Shown: positions 54,746-63,571 of the stretch, piece by piece
Layout: the number at the start of each line of letters is the position of its first letter
Numbering within the stretch: the stretch's first letter is position 1
Position numbers and translations under genes: made by a program
DNA from: Smithella sp.
GTDB taxonomy: Bacteria; Desulfobacterota; Syntrophia; Syntrophales; Smithellaceae
DNA length: 64,000 bases
Direction of reading: 5' to 3'
Assembly: GCA_012510495.1 (NCBI GenBank)
Contig: JAAZHX010000095.1
Location: forward strand, 1-64,000
Notes under the pieces: generated by a model
What the model saw: only the letters and a program-made list of their open reading frames with translations
Told to the model about the DNA's origin: nothing
Databases searched by the model: none

Positions 54746-55312
54746 ATGGATGCTGTCTGGAAATCGCAGGGGGAAAAACTGCACACGCGAAACATTGCAA
54801 TATCAACCTACGAATGCGACGAAAACAGAATCATCGTGGAAGGTTTTCTGAAAGATGACCGGCTTCAGGAAACATTTGCGGTTACGGGCGAAACGTTTCC
54901 GGCCGGCGTGATTCACCACATGGGCATCCGTCTGCTGGTCAACTGCTCCACTTTTTTGATCGAGGATGTTGACGTTGATCTGGTCTCGGTTCCGCGGGAC
55001 GTCTGCCGGGAAACGCTCGACAGTCTTGCTCCCATCAGGGGTCTGACCATTACCCGAGGATTCACCTCCAAAGTCAAAAAACTGGTTGGGGGAACAAAAG
55101 GCTGCGCCCATCTGCTGGAGCTGCTGCTGGCCATGGCCCCGGCTGCCGTCCAGGGATTTGCCGCGCACCGGTTGAGAAAGCCACACGATTTTGATCCCCA
55201 GCAGGAAAAGCTTATACTGAAATTCCTGATCAACACCTGCCACGCCTGGCGCGAAGACGGCCCGTTCGTTCAAACGTACAGGGAAATGATCCAAAAGGCG
55301 CTGAAGCCTTAA
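54746..55312 (+). CDS. DUF2889 family protein
   Basis: 188 residues. The DUF2889 core is recognisable (LHTRNIAISTYECDENRIIVEG, then GGTKGCAHLLELLLAMAPAAVQG with a conserved Cys-His pair, then INTCHAWREDGP). The ATG at 54746 is preceded by GGGGTGAGG. The function is unknown; the Gly-Cys-x-His and Cys-His motifs suggest a metal site or catalysis. It is the last gene of the plus-strand run from 51.2 kb. Confidence 0.82.
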   Translation: MDAVWKSQGEKLHTRNIAISTYECDENRIIVEGFLKDDRLQETFAVTGETFPAGVIHHMGIRLLVNCSTFLIEDVDVDLVSVPRDVCRETLDSLAPIRGLTITRGFTSKVKKLVGGTKGCAHLLELLLAMAPAAVQGFAAHRLRKPHDFDPQQEKLILKFLINTCHAWREDGPFVQTYREMIQKALKP

Positions 55313-55551
55313 GAATATTTCCGGTAAAAAACGTCAATGCCGCGGACATGCTCGGTATGCTCGTGGGAGATGAAGACACCCCGCAATTTGGACAAAGAAA
55401 TCCCTGGCCGGTCCATCCTCTCCACGATCTGCTTTGTGATCACGCCTGCGTCGATCAAAATGGCATCCTCGTCATTTTCAACATAATAGCAGTTGCCATT
55501 GCTGCCGGAAGCAATAGCCTTCTTGTTCTTTTCTGACAGGGTTGTTCCCAT
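55309..55551 (-). pseudogene. MBL-fold hydrolase, N-terminal fragment
   Basis: The N-terminal ~70 residues of a YycJ-type metallo-beta-lactamase protein are present (SGSNGNCYYVEND, ILIDAGV, GVFISHEHTEHVRGI), then the frame stops at 55309, overlapping the DUF2889 stop. Complete members have about 260 residues. The metal motif reads HEHTEH with Glu in place of the usual Asp, a further sign of decay. Confidence 0.75.
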
Positions 55552-56447: not shown

Positions 56448-57035
56448 TTACAAATCCCCCTCCTGCAGAACGCGGCCGAATCCATTTTCTTCCAGATACC
56501 AGTATGTAAAATGCTTGGATAACCAGCTTGCGGCCTTTTCTTCCGCCAAGGGGCGAAAGCGCGAAGTGTAAATCACCGGAATACCGTAGCGGGCTTCCAG
56601 GGCGTCGAGCGTTCCGGAGACGGCGTTCGGGTGGGCCAGCGTTTCGTATTCATCCTGATCATACGGAGTCTTGATGTCCTCATAGCTTGCTTCAATCAGC
56701 AAGGCTTTCCATCGGTATTTTGACATTTTCTCACATTGTTTGAAAAACCGAATGCGTTGTTGAATAACAGTTGTGATCAAATCGGTCAGCGTTTTACGCT
56801 CCAGAATCAGCAATTCCTCCATGCCTTCCACGCTGTAATCTCCGGCCTTCAGTGCCTGGCTTTTTGATCCGGCAATCCAGTTTGGAAACCGGCTGAAGTC
56901 AAATGGATGCTTTTCCCGTGTGTCGATCAGAACTACGGGTTTTGGAATCTGTCGTGTAATGCTGTGGCCGTTTCGCTTAACGATCAAACGGCCCGTTGGC
57001 GGCGCTGCCGGGTACCATTCCTGTTCTTCTGTCAT
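56448..57035 (-). CDS. XPF/ERCC4-type nuclease domain protein
   Basis: About 195 residues. The ERCC4 nuclease motif is complete: VVLIDTREKHPFD, then AGDYSVEG and LILERKTLTDLI (the ERKxxxD signature), with a conserved downstream helical region. XPF-family nucleases cut branched or single-strand/double-strand junction DNA. In bacteria, such short ERCC4 proteins occur in phage and defence regions. The ATG at 57035 is preferred to GTG 57041 because AGGTG lies just before it. An 8-bp inverted repeat (GATTTAGT/ACTAAATC, 57063-57094) lies upstream. Confidence 0.85.
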   Translation of the reverse strand: MTEEQEWYPAAPPTGRLIVKRNGHSITRQIPKPVVLIDTREKHPFDFSRFPNWIAGSKSQALKAGDYSVEGMEELLILERKTLTDLITTVIQQRIRFFKQCEKMSKYRWKALLIEASYEDIKTPYDQDEYETLAHPNAVSGTLDALEARYGIPVIYTSRFRPLAEEKAASWLSKHFTYWYLEENGFGRVLQEGDL

Positions 57036-57076
57036 GTTCACCTACCACCACCACAAAAAGATGATTTAGTATCGTG

Positions 57077-57613: not shown

Positions 57614-58612
57614 TTAATTGCCAATCAAGTGTTGTGCCGCTGGAACGTCCTGTGAAACTGAGAATGCATTCTGTAAAATACCATACTTGTAGCCAATTGT
57701 TTTATTATGAAAATATTCCACCATCACTTGTTTGTCACGGCTGTCTGGTGCATCTTCCACTATGTAATTGTATATTCCTTCCCAAGTTATACGCTTAAAC
57801 TGTCGTTGTCCGTCAACTTGTATAATATGGGGGATAAACCGTTCTTCAATGTCTTTATCTCTTTCAGACAGGACAATATTAATCAGGTAAAAATTCCGAT
57901 TCATTTCTTTCGCAAGCCAACTGCCAAGCAGCCAAAAGCGAAACAACTCGTATTTCTTTGCTTGTATCGCTACTGTATCAAAATCCGATCTGAATACTTG
58001 TTTATACCAGCCGTTGCCGCCTGTTAGATATTTTTTGCGATTATTTTTATCGCTTGGTGAGGTATTATTTGTGGCTGTCAATTTCGCTTCAATAAAATAG
58101 AGTGCTTTATCGGTTAATGCTATCAAATCGGGCTCAGAGCCGCGTGCCGGGTTTTCTCCAAATTCCTTCCTGGCTGTTTTTAATTCCTGCCATACGCCTT
58201 TCAATTTTGGCGAGTATGACCAATATATCAAATCTGCTTCAATGTAACTCACATGCCCAAAATGAGACAACAGGCTGGCTAATTGGTTGGTATTCTCTAG
58301 ATATCGAAAGACGTTCCAAGTTAGAGAGTCCTCGCTATTATCACGTTCAATGCGGCTTTCTCGCTTGTCTTTTTTTATTTCTTCCAGTAAATTCAAATCT
58401 GTTTTATTTTGCCATAACAAATTATCTTTCTCGTTGTTATATTCAAAGGTGGAAGGTGAGATATAGATTTTATGTTCGGGACACAGAAATCTTGCTTCGC
58501 GTCTGAATGAGCGACGTTGCCTTTCGACTATGCAACTACAACCCTTGACCGGACATTCAACTGTTGTTTGAGTTATGGTTATTATTTGCTTCAAATCTTT
58601 TATGCCAAACAT
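57614..58612 (-). CDS. Zinc-motif PD-(D/E)XK nuclease-like protein
   Basis: 332 residues. The N-terminus carries a zinc-binding candidate: C20, C25, C27, C44 and H47 (VECPVKGCSC and FLCPEH). The C-terminal part has a PD-(D/E)XK core, E95 in SEDSLTWNVFRYL, D162 in SEPDLIAL and E175-x-K177 in YFIEAKLT. This combination resembles restriction-like endonucleases. AAAGGAG in the end of the HD gene serves as its ribosome site, so the two are coupled (14-base gap). AT-rich relative to neighbours. Target unknown. Confidence 0.78.
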   Translation of the reverse strand: MFGIKDLKQIITITQTTVECPVKGCSCIVERQRRSFRREARFLCPEHKIYISPSTFEYNNEKDNLLWQNKTDLNLLEEIKKDKRESRIERDNSEDSLTWNVFRYLENTNQLASLLSHFGHVSYIEADLIYWSYSPKLKGVWQELKTARKEFGENPARGSEPDLIALTDKALYFIEAKLTATNNTSPSDKNNRKKYLTGGNGWYKQVFRSDFDTVAIQAKKYELFRFWLLGSWLAKEMNRNFYLINIVLSERDKDIEERFIPHIIQVDGQRQFKRITWEGIYNYIVEDAPDSRDKQVMVEYFHNKTIGYKYGILQNAFSVSQDVPAAQHLIGN

Positions 58613-58626
58613 AAGGAACTCCTTTA

Positions 58627-59253
58627 TTAGATTTGTTTATCTCGCCCCTCTTCATAGATATGCGCTGTCCAGTAATCTGCCCAATGAAGAAGCAACGTCA
58701 GCGGTTCCTCTTTGTGGGCCACAACTTTGTTGTCATCGATGTATTGGCCGTCATGGTAGGCAATGGCCTGTGCTTCGGTTTCAGAAAGAGAAATATATTG
58801 CGAAATGAGATAGAGACTACGGACGGCCAGGCCCATCGTAACGACGTCCGGGTTTGTTTTGTAGCATATACCCCGGTTTTTCACCATCCCCTCGTTGTCA
58901 TTGGGCAAATAGTAAGGTTTTCCCGGCGCACCCAGTTTGCCGACATCATGAAACAGCCCGACGATGACACAGCTTTCTTCGCTGATCTTTGGCGCAAGAA
59001 ATCCCCGAAACCGCAAAAGAGTTTCCGCAACGCCTACGCTGTGCTTCAGCAAACCGCGCTCCTGAGCCAGATGAAACCGCGTGCTGGCCGGGGCAGTAAG
59101 CCACGTTGTCTCATTCTCCAGCATAGCGACGAAGCGTTCAAACGGTTCCTTACGATCCATGATTTTCAGTTTCAATGCATTATAGTGATCTGATAATTCC
59201 ATGATCTTTTCTTCCTGTTCCTGAATAGGACAGATTCTTGATTTTATTGACAT
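58627..59253 (-). CDS. HD-domain hydrolase
   Basis: About 208 residues. The HD metal motif is GLFHDVGKLG, with an upstream histidine in RGLLKHSVGVAETLLRF and a later Asp in HWADYW. HD proteins hydrolyse phosphoesters of nucleotides or (oligo)nucleotides. The start at 59253 is chosen because GGGGGAG lies 9 bases upstream; an inner ATG at 59202 with GGAAG is possible. A CCCCTCTTT/AAAGAGGGG hairpin lies just before the ribosome site. The substrate could be a nucleotide signal or dNTP. Confidence 0.83.
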   Translation of the reverse strand: MSIKSRICPIQEQEEKIMELSDHYNALKLKIMDRKEPFERFVAMLENETTWLTAPASTRFHLAQERGLLKHSVGVAETLLRFRGFLAPKISEESCVIVGLFHDVGKLGAPGKPYYLPNDNEGMVKNRGICYKTNPDVVTMGLAVRSLYLISQYISLSETEAQAIAYHDGQYIDDNKVVAHKEEPLTLLLHWADYWTAHIYEEGRDKQI

Positions 59254-59262
59254 TCTAAAAAT

Positions 59263-59292
59263 CTCCCCCAACCCCTCTTTCAAAAAGAGGGG
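59263..59292. repeat. Palindromic intergenic repeat
   Basis: CCCCTCTTT (59272-59280) pairs with AAAGAGGGG (59284-59292) across a 3-base loop, preceded by CTCCCCCAA. It belongs with the C-rich/G-rich hairpins at 25192-25213 and 61690-61725 and lies between the AAA+ and HD genes. Confidence 0.65.
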
Positions 59293-59404: not shown

Positions 59405-61666
59405 TTATTTTCCACCGAATAACACCGGCGCTTTATTCTTTCCCCGGTACTTTTCAATGACGATCTTCACTGTTTCCATCGACGGTGAATAGGGCTTCCC
59501 TTCAATCATTGACCGGATGGATGCACGGTGGACAATGCTGTCGATTTCCGCAATGTGCATTGGATATCGCTCGACCAATTCAACAAGACTCTCGTCGGTT
59601 GACGTGCCCGGCATCAGATGTTTTTCCCATTGCCGGATTTGCATGTCTTCCGACGGATAATCCAGTTTGAAATGGGCGTGGAATTCCAGCGGGATGACGG
59701 TTTGAGGGCATTCGTGCAGGACGAGGCAGCAAAGACCCCGATATTCGCGCAGTTTATTTAAAAGTTCCGCCACAGCATTTCTTACGGACAGGCGGCTGTC
59801 CATGTCATTTTGTTTTCCTGTATCCTGCCATGCAATAACCCCGTTGTAGTCAACAATCATCAGCAGGTGAGATTCTTCCGTTGTCTGACCAAACGCGTAG
59901 TCTATCAATCTCGTTTTTTCCTGCGATACCATGTCAATCGTTTCATTATCATTTGTAAAATTGTCCATATCGCCAAATTTGAAACTTTTGATTTTCAGTT
60001 TGCACTCGGCGGCCAGCGCCTCCGCGGCAGAGATGCCGGTTTCAATATTTGTTCCGCTTATCAAAAGATTCAGTCCGGTTTCATTTTCCCGCGAGTACTG
60101 AAACGCTTTGGCGATATTCTTCAATTCAAGACGCTGCCTGGCCGCCAGCGGAAGCCTATCGATTATTTTTTCCGGTCTGTAAATCCTGCAGTATTTATGG
60201 TTTTGCGACATCCGGTGTGTTTGCAAATCCGCGGATTGTTCGAGGAGCGCCTGTGTGATGACGGGGCTGCCGCTTTCATCCGGTTCTGCGGCGTTGGCGG
60301 CGAGTAAAATGGTGTTTTTGATCAGGCCGCCGCTGAAAGGATAGCGCGCGTTGAGAGCCTCCAGGTTCACATCCGACGCCAGTTTGATAAAACCGGGCAG
60401 CAGCGCCTGCCAGATTTTCATTCTTTGAGATGCATCGGGCAGCGGAAAGTGAATTTTCATGGATAGACGCCGCTCCAGGGCCGGATCGAGGCCCCCCGCC
60501 TTATTGGTGGCCAGGATCACAACGCATTTTGCTTTTTCAATCCGGATGAGCAGCATTCTGGAAAGATGGGATCCTTCCCTGAAGATGTCGTCGGCTTCAT
60601 CGAAGAAAATGAAGCCGTTGAGCAGGGCGGCTTCCCGGAAAGCCTGAATCATGATGGCCTCCGTTTGCCATCTGTAGGATGCGTCGCTTAGGTTAACGGT
60701 TATGAGAGGCCGGTTGAAATGATGCGCCAGCGCTCTGGCCATCATCGTTTTACCGGTCCCGGACGGTCCCTGGAAAAAGAAGGTCAGCGCCGTGCCATAT
60801 TCCAGAAAGTCATCCAGCCGGGACCATTCCCTCCTTTCTTTCCGGCACCGATACCTGGCAATGTGGTCAACCAACGGTTTTTTCACATGTGCGGACATGA
60901 CGACGCTTTCCAGATCAATGGTGCTCTGCTCAATGCTGATTTCGTCATAGGTGCTCTTGTACAGGCGGTTGTCGCCGACAATGACGCGGACGTGACGCTC
61001 ATTGATGGTCACGATTTCATCCATGACGTGCGAACTTCTTCTTTCATAATCGCTTTTGAAGAAAATGATCTCTCGGGCGACCAGCGGCGCTGTTCTGCTG
61101 AAATGCCTTCTTTTCTCCAACTGTTCCCCATAGTCCATGCTGAGGATGAAAAGAATGACGCGGATGATTATGCCCCTGTTGTCATAGTCCAAGCCACAGG
61201 GGAGGAAAGCCTTGCGGAAGGTCTCACTGGTGGCGTGCATGAACAGAAGCAGAAGAATTTTTTCATCAAAGTCATCCAGGTGGTTTTCCCGGCAAAACAT
61301 CGGAAAGAAAAGCCTGACTCCGGAGAGCAATGTTTTGTTTTGGCGCGACCTGTTGATGCTGCGAACTCGGGCCAGCTCTGTTTCTATGTGCTCCCGAGTG
61401 ATATTTTGCGGCGTCAGGTTCAGACCGGCACAGAGCCGGATCCCTGCGCCGTCGTTTTCCAACCAATCGGTTTTCCCCGAACGGACCGCTGACAGAACAA
61501 GCATCAGCAGAGCCTCTTTCTCCAGAGCGGCAAGGTATTCATAATTGTCGGCAAAAGGTTCTTCATTCATGCCCGGATTCGATTCGTGCACAATAGACAG
61601 CAATTGACTTGCTTGCTCCCCGCACAAAGCCTGATCGTGTTCGGCGATACTTTGCATAGTGCTCAT
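59405..61666 (-). CDS. Large AAA+ ATPase with one active and one degenerate ATPase module
   Basis: 753 residues. Residues 1-280 have no recognised domain. The first AAA+ module has Walker A GPSGTGKT (300-307), Walker B FIFFDEADD (352-360), sensor 1 ATNK (387-389) and an arginine pair ERR near 399. A second module (about 510-720) keeps the fold but lacks Walker motifs (SGTNIETGIS in place of a P-loop). Such a pattern fits a hexameric remodeller or unfoldase. It follows a ClpP-like gene on the same strand, so it may feed the protease. No clear ClpX-type IGF loop is seen. Confidence 0.82.
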   Translation of the reverse strand: MSTMQSIAEHDQALCGEQASQLLSIVHESNPGMNEEPFADNYEYLAALEKEALLMLVLSAVRSGKTDWLENDGAGIRLCAGLNLTPQNITREHIETELARVRSINRSRQNKTLLSGVRLFFPMFCRENHLDDFDEKILLLLFMHATSETFRKAFLPCGLDYDNRGIIIRVILFILSMDYGEQLEKRRHFSRTAPLVAREIIFFKSDYERRSSHVMDEIVTINERHVRVIVGDNRLYKSTYDEISIEQSTIDLESVVMSAHVKKPLVDHIARYRCRKERREWSRLDDFLEYGTALTFFFQGPSGTGKTMMARALAHHFNRPLITVNLSDASYRWQTEAIMIQAFREAALLNGFIFFDEADDIFREGSHLSRMLLIRIEKAKCVVILATNKAGGLDPALERRLSMKIHFPLPDASQRMKIWQALLPGFIKLASDVNLEALNARYPFSGGLIKNTILLAANAAEPDESGSPVITQALLEQSADLQTHRMSQNHKYCRIYRPEKIIDRLPLAARQRLELKNIAKAFQYSRENETGLNLLISGTNIETGISAAEALAAECKLKIKSFKFGDMDNFTNDNETIDMVSQEKTRLIDYAFGQTTEESHLLMIVDYNGVIAWQDTGKQNDMDSRLSVRNAVAELLNKLREYRGLCCLVLHECPQTVIPLEFHAHFKLDYPSEDMQIRQWEKHLMPGTSTDESLVELVERYPMHIAEIDSIVHRASIRSMIEGKPYSPSMETVKIVIEKYRGKNKAPVLFGGK

Positions 61667-61689
61667 TTGTTTTTTCCTTTCATTGTTTG

Positions 61690-61725
61690 GTTCCCCCTCC
61701 CCTCAATCCCCTCCCACAAGGGGAA
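61690..61725. repeat. C-rich palindromic repeat
   Basis: CCCCTCCC...CAATCCCCTCCCACAAGGGGAAG in the gap between the ClpP-like and AAA+ genes contains a short TCCCCT/AGGGGA stem and resembles the repeats at 25192 and 59263. Confidence 0.45.
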
Positions 61726-61823
61726 GATACGAAAGACAACGGCCGGCATTGTCTGTCCTGAATCACCATCTCCAGGGACAGGAAGATGATCAGGCGACGT
61801 AGGCCAAAAGATACCGGACCGGA

Positions 61824-62390
61824 TTAATGCTTCTTCCTTATGGGTTCGACAACGTCCACAATGCCCATCCGGATTGCCTCTTCCGTGGTGAGCCAGGTGT
61901 CGACATCTCTTAAGAGGTATGCTTCCAGTTCGTTGCGGTCCTTGATGCCGGAATAGGTCATGTAATGATTCAGGATGCGCTCGTGCAGCATGTCTTCTTC
62001 CCGCCGTCCCGCGATGAGCTGGCTGTGATTGCCGAAGTTCATGGCCGAGAAGCGATGCGATAATATGGATGTCCGTGGCGTGACGACGCGGTGCCCTTTT
62101 TCGCCGGTCATGAAGATCAAAAGCCCCATGGAAGCGATCATCCCGATTCCGGTTGTGTAGATGGGAATGCTCGACCATTCCATGATGTCGATGATGGAGA
62201 AGCCGGCTGTGCAGGGGCCGCCCGGTGAATTGATCACCATCTGCACCTGGTTGATGCTGCCCTTGATGTTGAATTCGATGATCTGTTTGCAGACTTCCTC
62301 GGCCTTTGCCTCTCCGATCGCCCCGGACAGATAAATGATGCCGTAATCGATCAGTCCCCTTTCTTCCCTTTCTTTTTCTTTTGTGGCCAT
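61824..62390 (-). CDS. ClpP-like serine protease
   Basis: 188 residues of the ClpP fold. The catalytic triad is complete: S87 (IASMG), H112 (ILSHRFS) and D164 (RDVDTWL), with Ser-His spacing of 25 as in E. coli ClpP; the oxyanion loop NSPGGPCTAG is present. No N-terminal propeptide is seen. GGGAGG lies 6 bases before the ATG. It is not next to clpX or tig, as a housekeeping clpP would be; it leads the minus-strand set that starts opposite the WYL regulator, which suggests a specialised protease used with the downstream AAA+ protein. Confidence 0.88.
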   Translation of the reverse strand: MATKEKEREERGLIDYGIIYLSGAIGEAKAEEVCKQIIEFNIKGSINQVQMVINSPGGPCTAGFSIIDIMEWSSIPIYTTGIGMIASMGLLIFMTGEKGHRVVTPRTSILSHRFSAMNFGNHSQLIAGRREEDMLHERILNHYMTYSGIKDRNELEAYLLRDVDTWLTTEEAIRMGIVDVVEPIRKKH

Positions 62391-62551: not shown

Positions 62552-63571
62552 ATGAGACTGAGACTGCTTCGAAAGCTTGTCGATGCCATTACCCTGCTGG
62601 CGCAGCCGACGGGAACGACCATTTCCGCTATTTGTGAAAGGCTTGCGATCGATAAACGGCAGGCCTATCGGGTGATTGAGGAAATCCAGAGTGAATTCAA
62701 GATCATGATTGACAAGGAAAAACCGCTGCCCGACGGCGAAATCCGGTATCATCTGGACAGGGAGTTCATCCGGCGGCTTTCTGACATCAAGGTGGCCGAC
62801 ATAAACCTGACATTCCCGGAAATCTTGAGTCTTTATTTCATTAAAGGTCACGCCCGCCTTTACCGCGGAACGGACATCGAGGAGAATATCGAAAGAGCCT
62901 TTGGCAAGCTGGATGTCTTCTTTCCGGAAGGATTTGCGAGAAACCTGGAAAGAATCAAGTCGCTTTTTCTGATGGCGGACAAACTCACCAAGGATTACAC
63001 CGGCAAGGAAAAAACAATTGAAAAACTGACGGACGCCTTCCTGCGGCAGAAAACATGCCGCATTGAATATCATTCCTATTCCTCAGGGAAAGTCAGCCGC
63101 TTCGATATCGATCCGCTGAAGCTTTTTGAATGGAACGGCGGCCTTTATATATCGGCGCGTATTTCTAAAGATGACATGATCCGCACGCTGGCCGTGGAAA
63201 GAATCAGCAGTATCTCTCTATCCGAAAAAGATTTTTCTTATCCCGAGGATTTCAATCCGGATGAAATCCTGGAAGACGCGTTCGGCATCATTTACGACGA
63301 TCCGGTGGCCGTCAAAATTCGCTTCAGCCCGAAACAGGCGCCCTACATTCAGGAAAGAAAATGGTGCAAAAATCAAGACATTGAAAAGTGCGCGGACGGA
63401 TCACTTCACCTGACCCTGCGCACATCCGGCTGGTATGATGTTCAAAAATGGATTCTTTCCTTTGGCGCGGACGCCGAGCTTTTGGAGCCTGAGGACAAGA
63501 GAAAGGAAGTCATGGAAGAGATCAGCCGGACGGCCGCGCTTTACCGCCTGGGCAGAAAACCGTCAGGATGA
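62552..63571 (+). CDS. WYL-domain transcriptional regulator
   Basis: 339 residues. An N-terminal helix-turn-helix (TISAICERLAIDKRQAYRVIEEI) is followed by a WYL domain (CRIEYHSYSSGKVSRFDIDPLKLFEWNGGLYISAR) and a WCX-type C-terminal extension (VAVKIRFSPKQAPYI...GWYDVQKWILSFG). WYL proteins bind nucleic-acid or nucleotide ligands and often control defence operons. It is divergent from the ClpP-AAA+-HD-nuclease set and probably regulates it. AAGGTG precedes the ATG. Confidence 0.9.
   Translation: MRLRLLRKLVDAITLLAQPTGTTISAICERLAIDKRQAYRVIEEIQSEFKIMIDKEKPLPDGEIRYHLDREFIRRLSDIKVADINLTFPEILSLYFIKGHARLYRGTDIEENIERAFGKLDVFFPEGFARNLERIKSLFLMADKLTKDYTGKEKTIEKLTDAFLRQKTCRIEYHSYSSGKVSRFDIDPLKLFEWNGGLYISARISKDDMIRTLAVERISSISLSEKDFSYPEDFNPDEILEDAFGIIYDDPVAVKIRFSPKQAPYIQERKWCKNQDIEKCADGSLHLTLRTSGWYDVQKWILSFGADAELLEPEDKRKEVMEEISRTAALYRLGRKPSG

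Follow-up and report, generated by a model that had tools for sequence, protein, structure and literature searches.

A ClpP-like serine peptidase and a tandem classical AAA ATPase are encoded next to each other in the window, a 64,000-nucleotide stretch of Smithella sp. DNA. The pairing of these two genes is real and extends across several phyla. A sequence-only reading of the window had suggested that the ATPase, if the pair works together, would be a new kind of ClpP partner, and genomic and sequence evidence now supports a joint function of the two proteins. Taking the explanation as a whole, we consider it probable that the two genes encode a single accessory, tail-docked, two-component AAA+ protease, of which we infer the assembly, docking, threading, substrates, regulation and role. 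To our knowledge, the only ATPases that serve ClpP are those of the Clp/Hsp100 group, via an IGF loop. Classical AAA unfoldases serve the proteasome via C-terminal tails. A ClpP-paired ATPase of the classical AAA type whose C-terminus bears a conserved tail would bridge both docking schemes, and would make a change of peptidase by a ring ATPase directly testable. We found no description of this pair in the open-access PMC literature.

Table 1. Features of the Smithella sp. locus, in window coordinates.
Feature	Position	Strand	Remarks
ClpP-like serine peptidase (S14)	61824-62390	-	188 aa; triad S87/H112/D164, short N-terminus, rebuilt IGF cleft
WHD-AAA-AAA(degenerate) ATPase	59405-61666	-	753 aa; proposed unfoldase partner of ClpP
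PF22977 variant winged-helix domain of the ATPase	60956-61570	-	residues 33-237; may read substrates or adaptors
AAA module 1 of the ATPase	60185-60946	-	residues 241-494; full catalytic set, P-loop GPSGTGKT at 300-307
AAA module 2 of the ATPase	59438-60184	-	residues 495-743; without Walker A; model aligns to D2 of Rix7/NVL/Cdc48
C-terminal LFG motif of the ATPase	59414-59422	-	residues 749-751; candidate ClpP-docking tail
Divergent WYL-domain regulator	62552-63571	+	recurrent neighbour of the pair
HD-domain protein	58627-59283	-	accessory; adjoining or near in Syntrophales-type loci only
REase-ARP-like (PF22558) putative nuclease	57614-58612	-	accessory
ERCC4-type nuclease	56448-57041	-	accessory gene that recurs; its cluster covers 10 loci, of which some duplicate one contig

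The ClpP-like protein matches PF00574 with an E-value of 2.8e-31 (109 bits, cut-off 20.2), and about 180 residues of its predicted structure (pLDDT 85, pTM 0.81) align with solved ClpPs, at Z about 26. Its catalytic triad, whose spacing the sequence-only reading had likened to that of real ClpP, is in register and invariant in an alignment of 36 family ClpPs (36/36). By its PF00574 score, its triad and its modelled fold, the protein is a member of the ClpP family. The Smithella genome (2.8 Mb, 332 contigs) contains a separate, stronger ClpP (L001, 284 bits), so that the window ClpP is an extra copy. Compared with this housekeeping protein, for which we chose the start ourselves, about 11 residues fewer precede the first core strand of the window ClpP; in pairwise alignments, the handle region is free of large indels. 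V163 is invariant in the family (36/36), at a position where canonical ClpP has an Arg that supports the double ring; a tetradecamer is therefore not assured. A sister clade of ClpPs, with 36-43% identity, occurs in phages (L082-L084, L184 and L185, including the jumbo phage Phosso and BUCT-ZZ01), where this ATPase does not lie beside it. Viral contigs L085-L092 share another ClpP-like gene (about 30% identity) in a well conserved gene neighbourhood.

To identify related loci, GTDB contigs were scanned with ClpP patterns only, which gave 38 loci. The sequence-only reading had staked the partnership on adjacency of the two genes in relatives, and in 35 of the 38 loci the ATPase gene does follow clpP directly, with both genes on one strand; among loci with an intact ClpP, the count is 33 of 34. 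Two of the loci lacking the ATPase (L079 and L080) are ClpP fragments, and the third (L069) has an intact ClpP and no AAA match in what remains of its contig (629 nt). Among the 35 paired loci, the AAA gene is broken or short in three (L050, L057 and L081) and cut by the contig end in five more. The distance between the two genes is -41 to +47 nt in 32/35 paired loci. Seen from the ATPase, ClpP is found upstream of every AAA match of at least 480 bits for which upstream DNA exists. ClpP and ATPase distances are strongly correlated (r = 0.92, 27 loci), a value reached in none of 5000 permutations, and shared descent may partly contribute to this co-divergence.

The 38 loci span Smithella and other Syntrophales-type MAGs, relatives of Geobacter (with Geomobilimonas luticola and Geobacter sp. 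OR-1 as named strains) and Desulfobulbales-type MAGs, with further loci in MAGs labelled Nitrospiraceae, Synergistaceae, Dependentiae and Rhodobacterales; these labels are those of the records themselves, and MAG binning can be wrong. The ATPase is carried by 10 of 155 genomes in the order of the window, the window genome included; an eleventh match in this order (G095) lacks ClpP and differs in its tail. Strong matches were obtained in 11 of 141 genomes, plus two fragments, in the order of Geomobilimonas, and in 2 of 149 genomes in the phylum of the Synergistaceae MAG. The copies are patchily spread, and some are decayed.

The ATPase sequence matches Cdc48/p97, and PF00004 covers its residues 298-409. 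Each of the 28 aligned ATPases has a single P-loop, located in module 1, and a module 2 without Walker A (28/28 in both cases), as expected from the earlier suggestion of one active and one dead module. The Walker B residues D356/E357, together with N388 and R399/R400, are invariant in module 1 (28/28). The predicted structure has a pLDDT of 79 and a pTM of 0.49; its residues 236-747 align with Rix7 at Z 20.1 over 442 residues (rmsd 6.5), with NVL at Z 18.9 and with p97 and Cdc48 at Z about 18, the whole set of tandem matches lying at Z 17-20. Since these are tandem classical AAA ATPases, the alignment indicates that module 2 corresponds to a D2-like ring part and that the architecture is Cdc48-like rather than Clp-like. 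As modelled, the protein is a tandem classical AAA ATPase of the Cdc48/Rix7 type with two consecutive modules, although, unlike in Cdc48, the second module has no Walker A. The sequence-only reading was right in setting the ATPase apart from ClpX, ClpA and ClpC: it scores 17.5 bits against the TIGR00382 clpX model, for which the cut-off is 370.75, and we rejected a ClpX/A/C identity. The same reading had called the N-domain unknown, and here it has to be corrected, as this region is a variant winged-helix domain (PF22977, 5.1e-22, 79 bits, cut-off 27). The pair thus resembles ClpXP, ClpAP and ClpCP in its ClpP fold and triad and in a ring-type AAA+ partner proposed to feed ClpP. It differs from them by a classical, tandem Cdc48/Rix7-like AAA ATPase with a winged-helix domain and no conserved IGF loop, and by a ClpP with a shorter N-terminus and a rebuilt IGF cleft.

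The missing IGF loop, already remarked upon in the sequence-only reading, was sought as a [ILVMPF]G[FLYW] column in the 28 ATPases. No such column is conserved, the best (13/28) being an FGY just before Walker A. The C-terminal or loop docking motif that the sequence-only reading had proposed to look for has a candidate in an LFG tail, present in 27 of the 28 aligned ATPases, or in 28 of 29 full-length members when L063 is counted, located 0-11 residues from the end of the protein. Residues 495-753 contain only seven columns conserved in at least 26 of the 28 ATPases, and three of these are L, F and G. Two Dependentiae-labelled ATPases, the rest of whose module 2 is hardly alignable, end exactly in LFG. 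The exception, the ATPase of L073, ends in SLF without the G. In contrast, no LFG end is present in eight complete WHD-AAA proteins without ClpP, nor in 23 weaker AAA relatives without ClpP (0/31 in total); the 23 all have their own stop, 3'-cut rows, a duplicate and a small second piece having been left out, and we attach no probability to the comparison because the rows are related. The last nine residues of the Smithella ATPase are predicted to be disordered, with a tail pLDDT below 50. A penultimate Tyr, as in the HbYX type, is absent among the ATPase tails listed. At L073 (8562-10148), the ATPase also lacks the winged-helix N-domain and still adjoins an intact family ClpP.

The counterpart of this tail may be found on the peptidase. 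The hydrophobic IGF-binding cleft (Y60, Y62, F82 and neighbours) is not kept in the window ClpP family, which has Q50 (36/36), V, I or L at position 52, W72 (36/36), T80 (34/36), T104 (35/36) and E182 (33/36); the corresponding residues of the housekeeping ClpP are F, Y, Y, V, L and V. Beyond Y62 and F82, we take the compared positions to be those of the IGF cleft of canonical ClpP. The importance of Y62 and F82 for the cleft is described in an excerpt of PMC11005422. Q50 and W72 are lacking in all five sister phage ClpPs (5/5); combined with the LFG controls, this indicates that the tail and cleft features go together with the pairing.

In ClpX, six IGF loops occupy six of the seven ClpP clefts (excerpt of PMC10638403), whereas the HbYX tails at the C-terminus of proteasomal ATPases dock into pockets between subunits (excerpt of PMC5476697). 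To judge from the sequences, the ATPase and ClpP are probably joined by the conserved tail at the end of the ATPase and not by the usual loop. By analogy, we propose that the proteasomal tail scheme is used here on the IGF-loop site of ClpP. Like PAN, Rpt and Mpa, the window ATPase has a classical AAA fold and a short, flexible, hydrophobic-aromatic C-terminal motif with proposed docking into the inter-subunit pockets of a seven-fold peptidase; as opposed to these HbYX proteins, its motif is LFG without the penultimate Tyr, and the peptidase is ClpP instead of the 20S proteasome. The tail is not the only possible way to dock, since an actinobacterial Cdc48-like protein binds the proteasome without an HbYX tail (excerpt of PMC6017811). 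The LFG tail could also bind something other than ClpP.

In the two-component protease that we favour, the ATPase would form a hexameric ring in which module 1 would burn ATP and pull on the protein, and module 2 would act as a non-catalytic D2 ring facing the peptidase. Substrates would be selected by the winged-helix N-domain or by a partner bound to it. The flexible LFG tail of each ATPase subunit would insert into the clefts between ClpP subunits, at the site used by the IGF loops of ClpX, ClpA and ClpC, and these clefts (Q50, W72, T80, T104 and E182) may have co-evolved with it, such that this ClpP would accept its own ATPase and exclude the housekeeping Clp ATPases. Once unfolded, the substrate would be threaded into the chamber of ClpP, where S87/H112/D164 would cleave it. 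In many copies, expression would be controlled by the adjoining WYL regulator, and the most likely use of such an accessory, patchy system would be to degrade specific invader or regulatory proteins.

Could the two proteins have separate functions? The nearest sequence relatives of the ATPase that lack ClpP are eCIS ATPases, adjoined by Pvc16_N, and eCIS-type relatives on plasmids are annotated in the gene order tape-measure, AAA, DUF4255. The window ATPase could likewise be a chaperone or remodeller in its own right, as these relatives may be, with a ClpP served by housekeeping ClpX/ClpA and genes that are only co-transcribed; the presence of a housekeeping ClpP in the genome is compatible with this. 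However, the window ClpP differs at conserved positions of its IGF cleft, the two genes stay together in different phyla and the LFG tail is restricted to ClpP-linked members, which makes this explanation quite unlikely. The window ATPase has PF22977 WHD and AAA domains in common with the eCIS ATPases, and differs from them by its LFG tail, its adjoining ClpP and its setting apart from injection-system genes. None of the 10 window proteins scanned (54.7-63.6 kb) is a tape-measure, DUF4255/Pvc16 or DUF4157 protein, and we rejected an eCIS identity as the required neighbour genes are absent. Another AAA relative, L139 (G397:C565; 356 bits, cut at its 3' end), has no ClpP in 1.37 kb upstream and is possibly an intermediate between eCIS-type and ClpP-linked ATPases.

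The sister clade in phages raises the alternative of a prophage remnant, consisting of a phage head-maturation ClpP and an unrelated ATPase. The window ClpP does match a PHROG head maturation protease (phrog_94, 2.9e-26), and its HD and ERCC4 neighbours match PHROGs too. However, capsid, portal and terminase matches are absent among the window genes scanned and among the 25 of 73 families listed for 92 neighbour proteins, and in two complete phage records whose ClpP is related, nothing matches this ATPase family strongly (at most 48.7 bits). As no structural phage gene was found among those scanned, we rejected the head-maturation reading, which we regard as highly improbable.

A further alternative comes from IetAS and SgiAT. 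In IetAS, the AAA ATPase IetA is accompanied by the subtilisin-like protease IetS. The best NCBIfam match of our AAA core is the anti-phage ATPase IetA/IteA (NF042959), with 63.7 bits over residues 243-525, and the best PADLOC match of the ATPase is also IetA (67.8 bits). For SGI1 and pTiC58, the terms toxin and antitoxin are applied to the IetS-like partner and the IetA-like protein, respectively (excerpt of PMC5006074). In a toxin-antitoxin-like pair of this kind, ClpP would be self-harming and the AAA protein would restrain it, up to the moment when an invader enters or the element is lost and ClpP is released; the patchy, sometimes decayed copies would agree with this. We find it unlikely. 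The IetA cut-off (510 bits, equivalog) is missed by far, and we rejected an IetA identity on this basis; the partner is ClpP and not the IetS protease; and the intact ClpP of L069 stands without an AAA match. The cleft and tail also point to docking, although an inhibitory ATPase would suit them too. Our pair resembles IetAS/SgiAT in its AAA core and in the location of its AAA gene, on accessory DNA and next to the gene of a protease, but differs by its ClpP protease, its extra WHD and its second AAA module. No IetS protease adjoins it, and ClpP is the only peptidase family among the window neighbours scanned.

The favoured two-component protease possibly has an accessory role in defence or element stability, similar to IetAS; the distribution of its copies fits such a role, whereas its neighbourhood is defence-like only in part. 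It would extend the AAA-plus-protease systems that have links to phage defence and element stability to one based on ClpP. A WYL regulator is present in the fetched flanks of 22/38 loci. Among the 25 of 73 families listed for the 92 neighbour proteins scanned, DUF2779 (9), ERCC4 (4), REase-ARP (3) and SIR2 (2) recur, mixed with housekeeping genes, and PADLOC matches are few (25 of 55 families listed). For these reasons we reduced the claim of a defence island to a possibility.

A bolder scenario strikes us as quite possible, if less probable than the protease itself. An ATPase of Cdc48 architecture, kin of injection-system ATPases, would have captured ClpP; LFG-tail docking would be convergent with HbYX docking and the second AAA ring would have become a dead docking adaptor. 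The pair would be a mobile, WYL-controlled defence or element-stability protease present in several phyla, and a new class of ClpP machine.

Several loci show additional features. In Geobacter sp. OR-1, the ATPase gene is split over the ends of contig BAZF01000012 (G395:C52; 166,031 bases), at 1-1182 and 164982-166031. The two pieces join exactly (profile positions 3-390 and 391-741), so that this contig is probably circular; a conjugative plasmid was rejected, as the genome has no PF02534 T4SS coupling protein. At L040:5767-8025 (G008), the gene that immediately precedes clpP, in the same orientation, specifies another AAA protein, which has two PF00004 stretches. Related large proteins follow the pair directly or at a short distance at L059:10773-14069 (1,098 aa, WD40 repeats) and L057:11187-15284 (1,365 aa). 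The clpP-ATPase gap of the Smithella window (61667-61823, 157 nt) exceeds that of 32/35 relatives and contains a purine-rich stretch, similar to one upstream of the HD gene. Finally, an 80-aa metallo-beta-lactamase remnant lies at 55309-55551 (minus strand) of the window; a full-length metallo-beta-lactamase gene is found near the pair in L061, and a related gene, by clustering, in L076.
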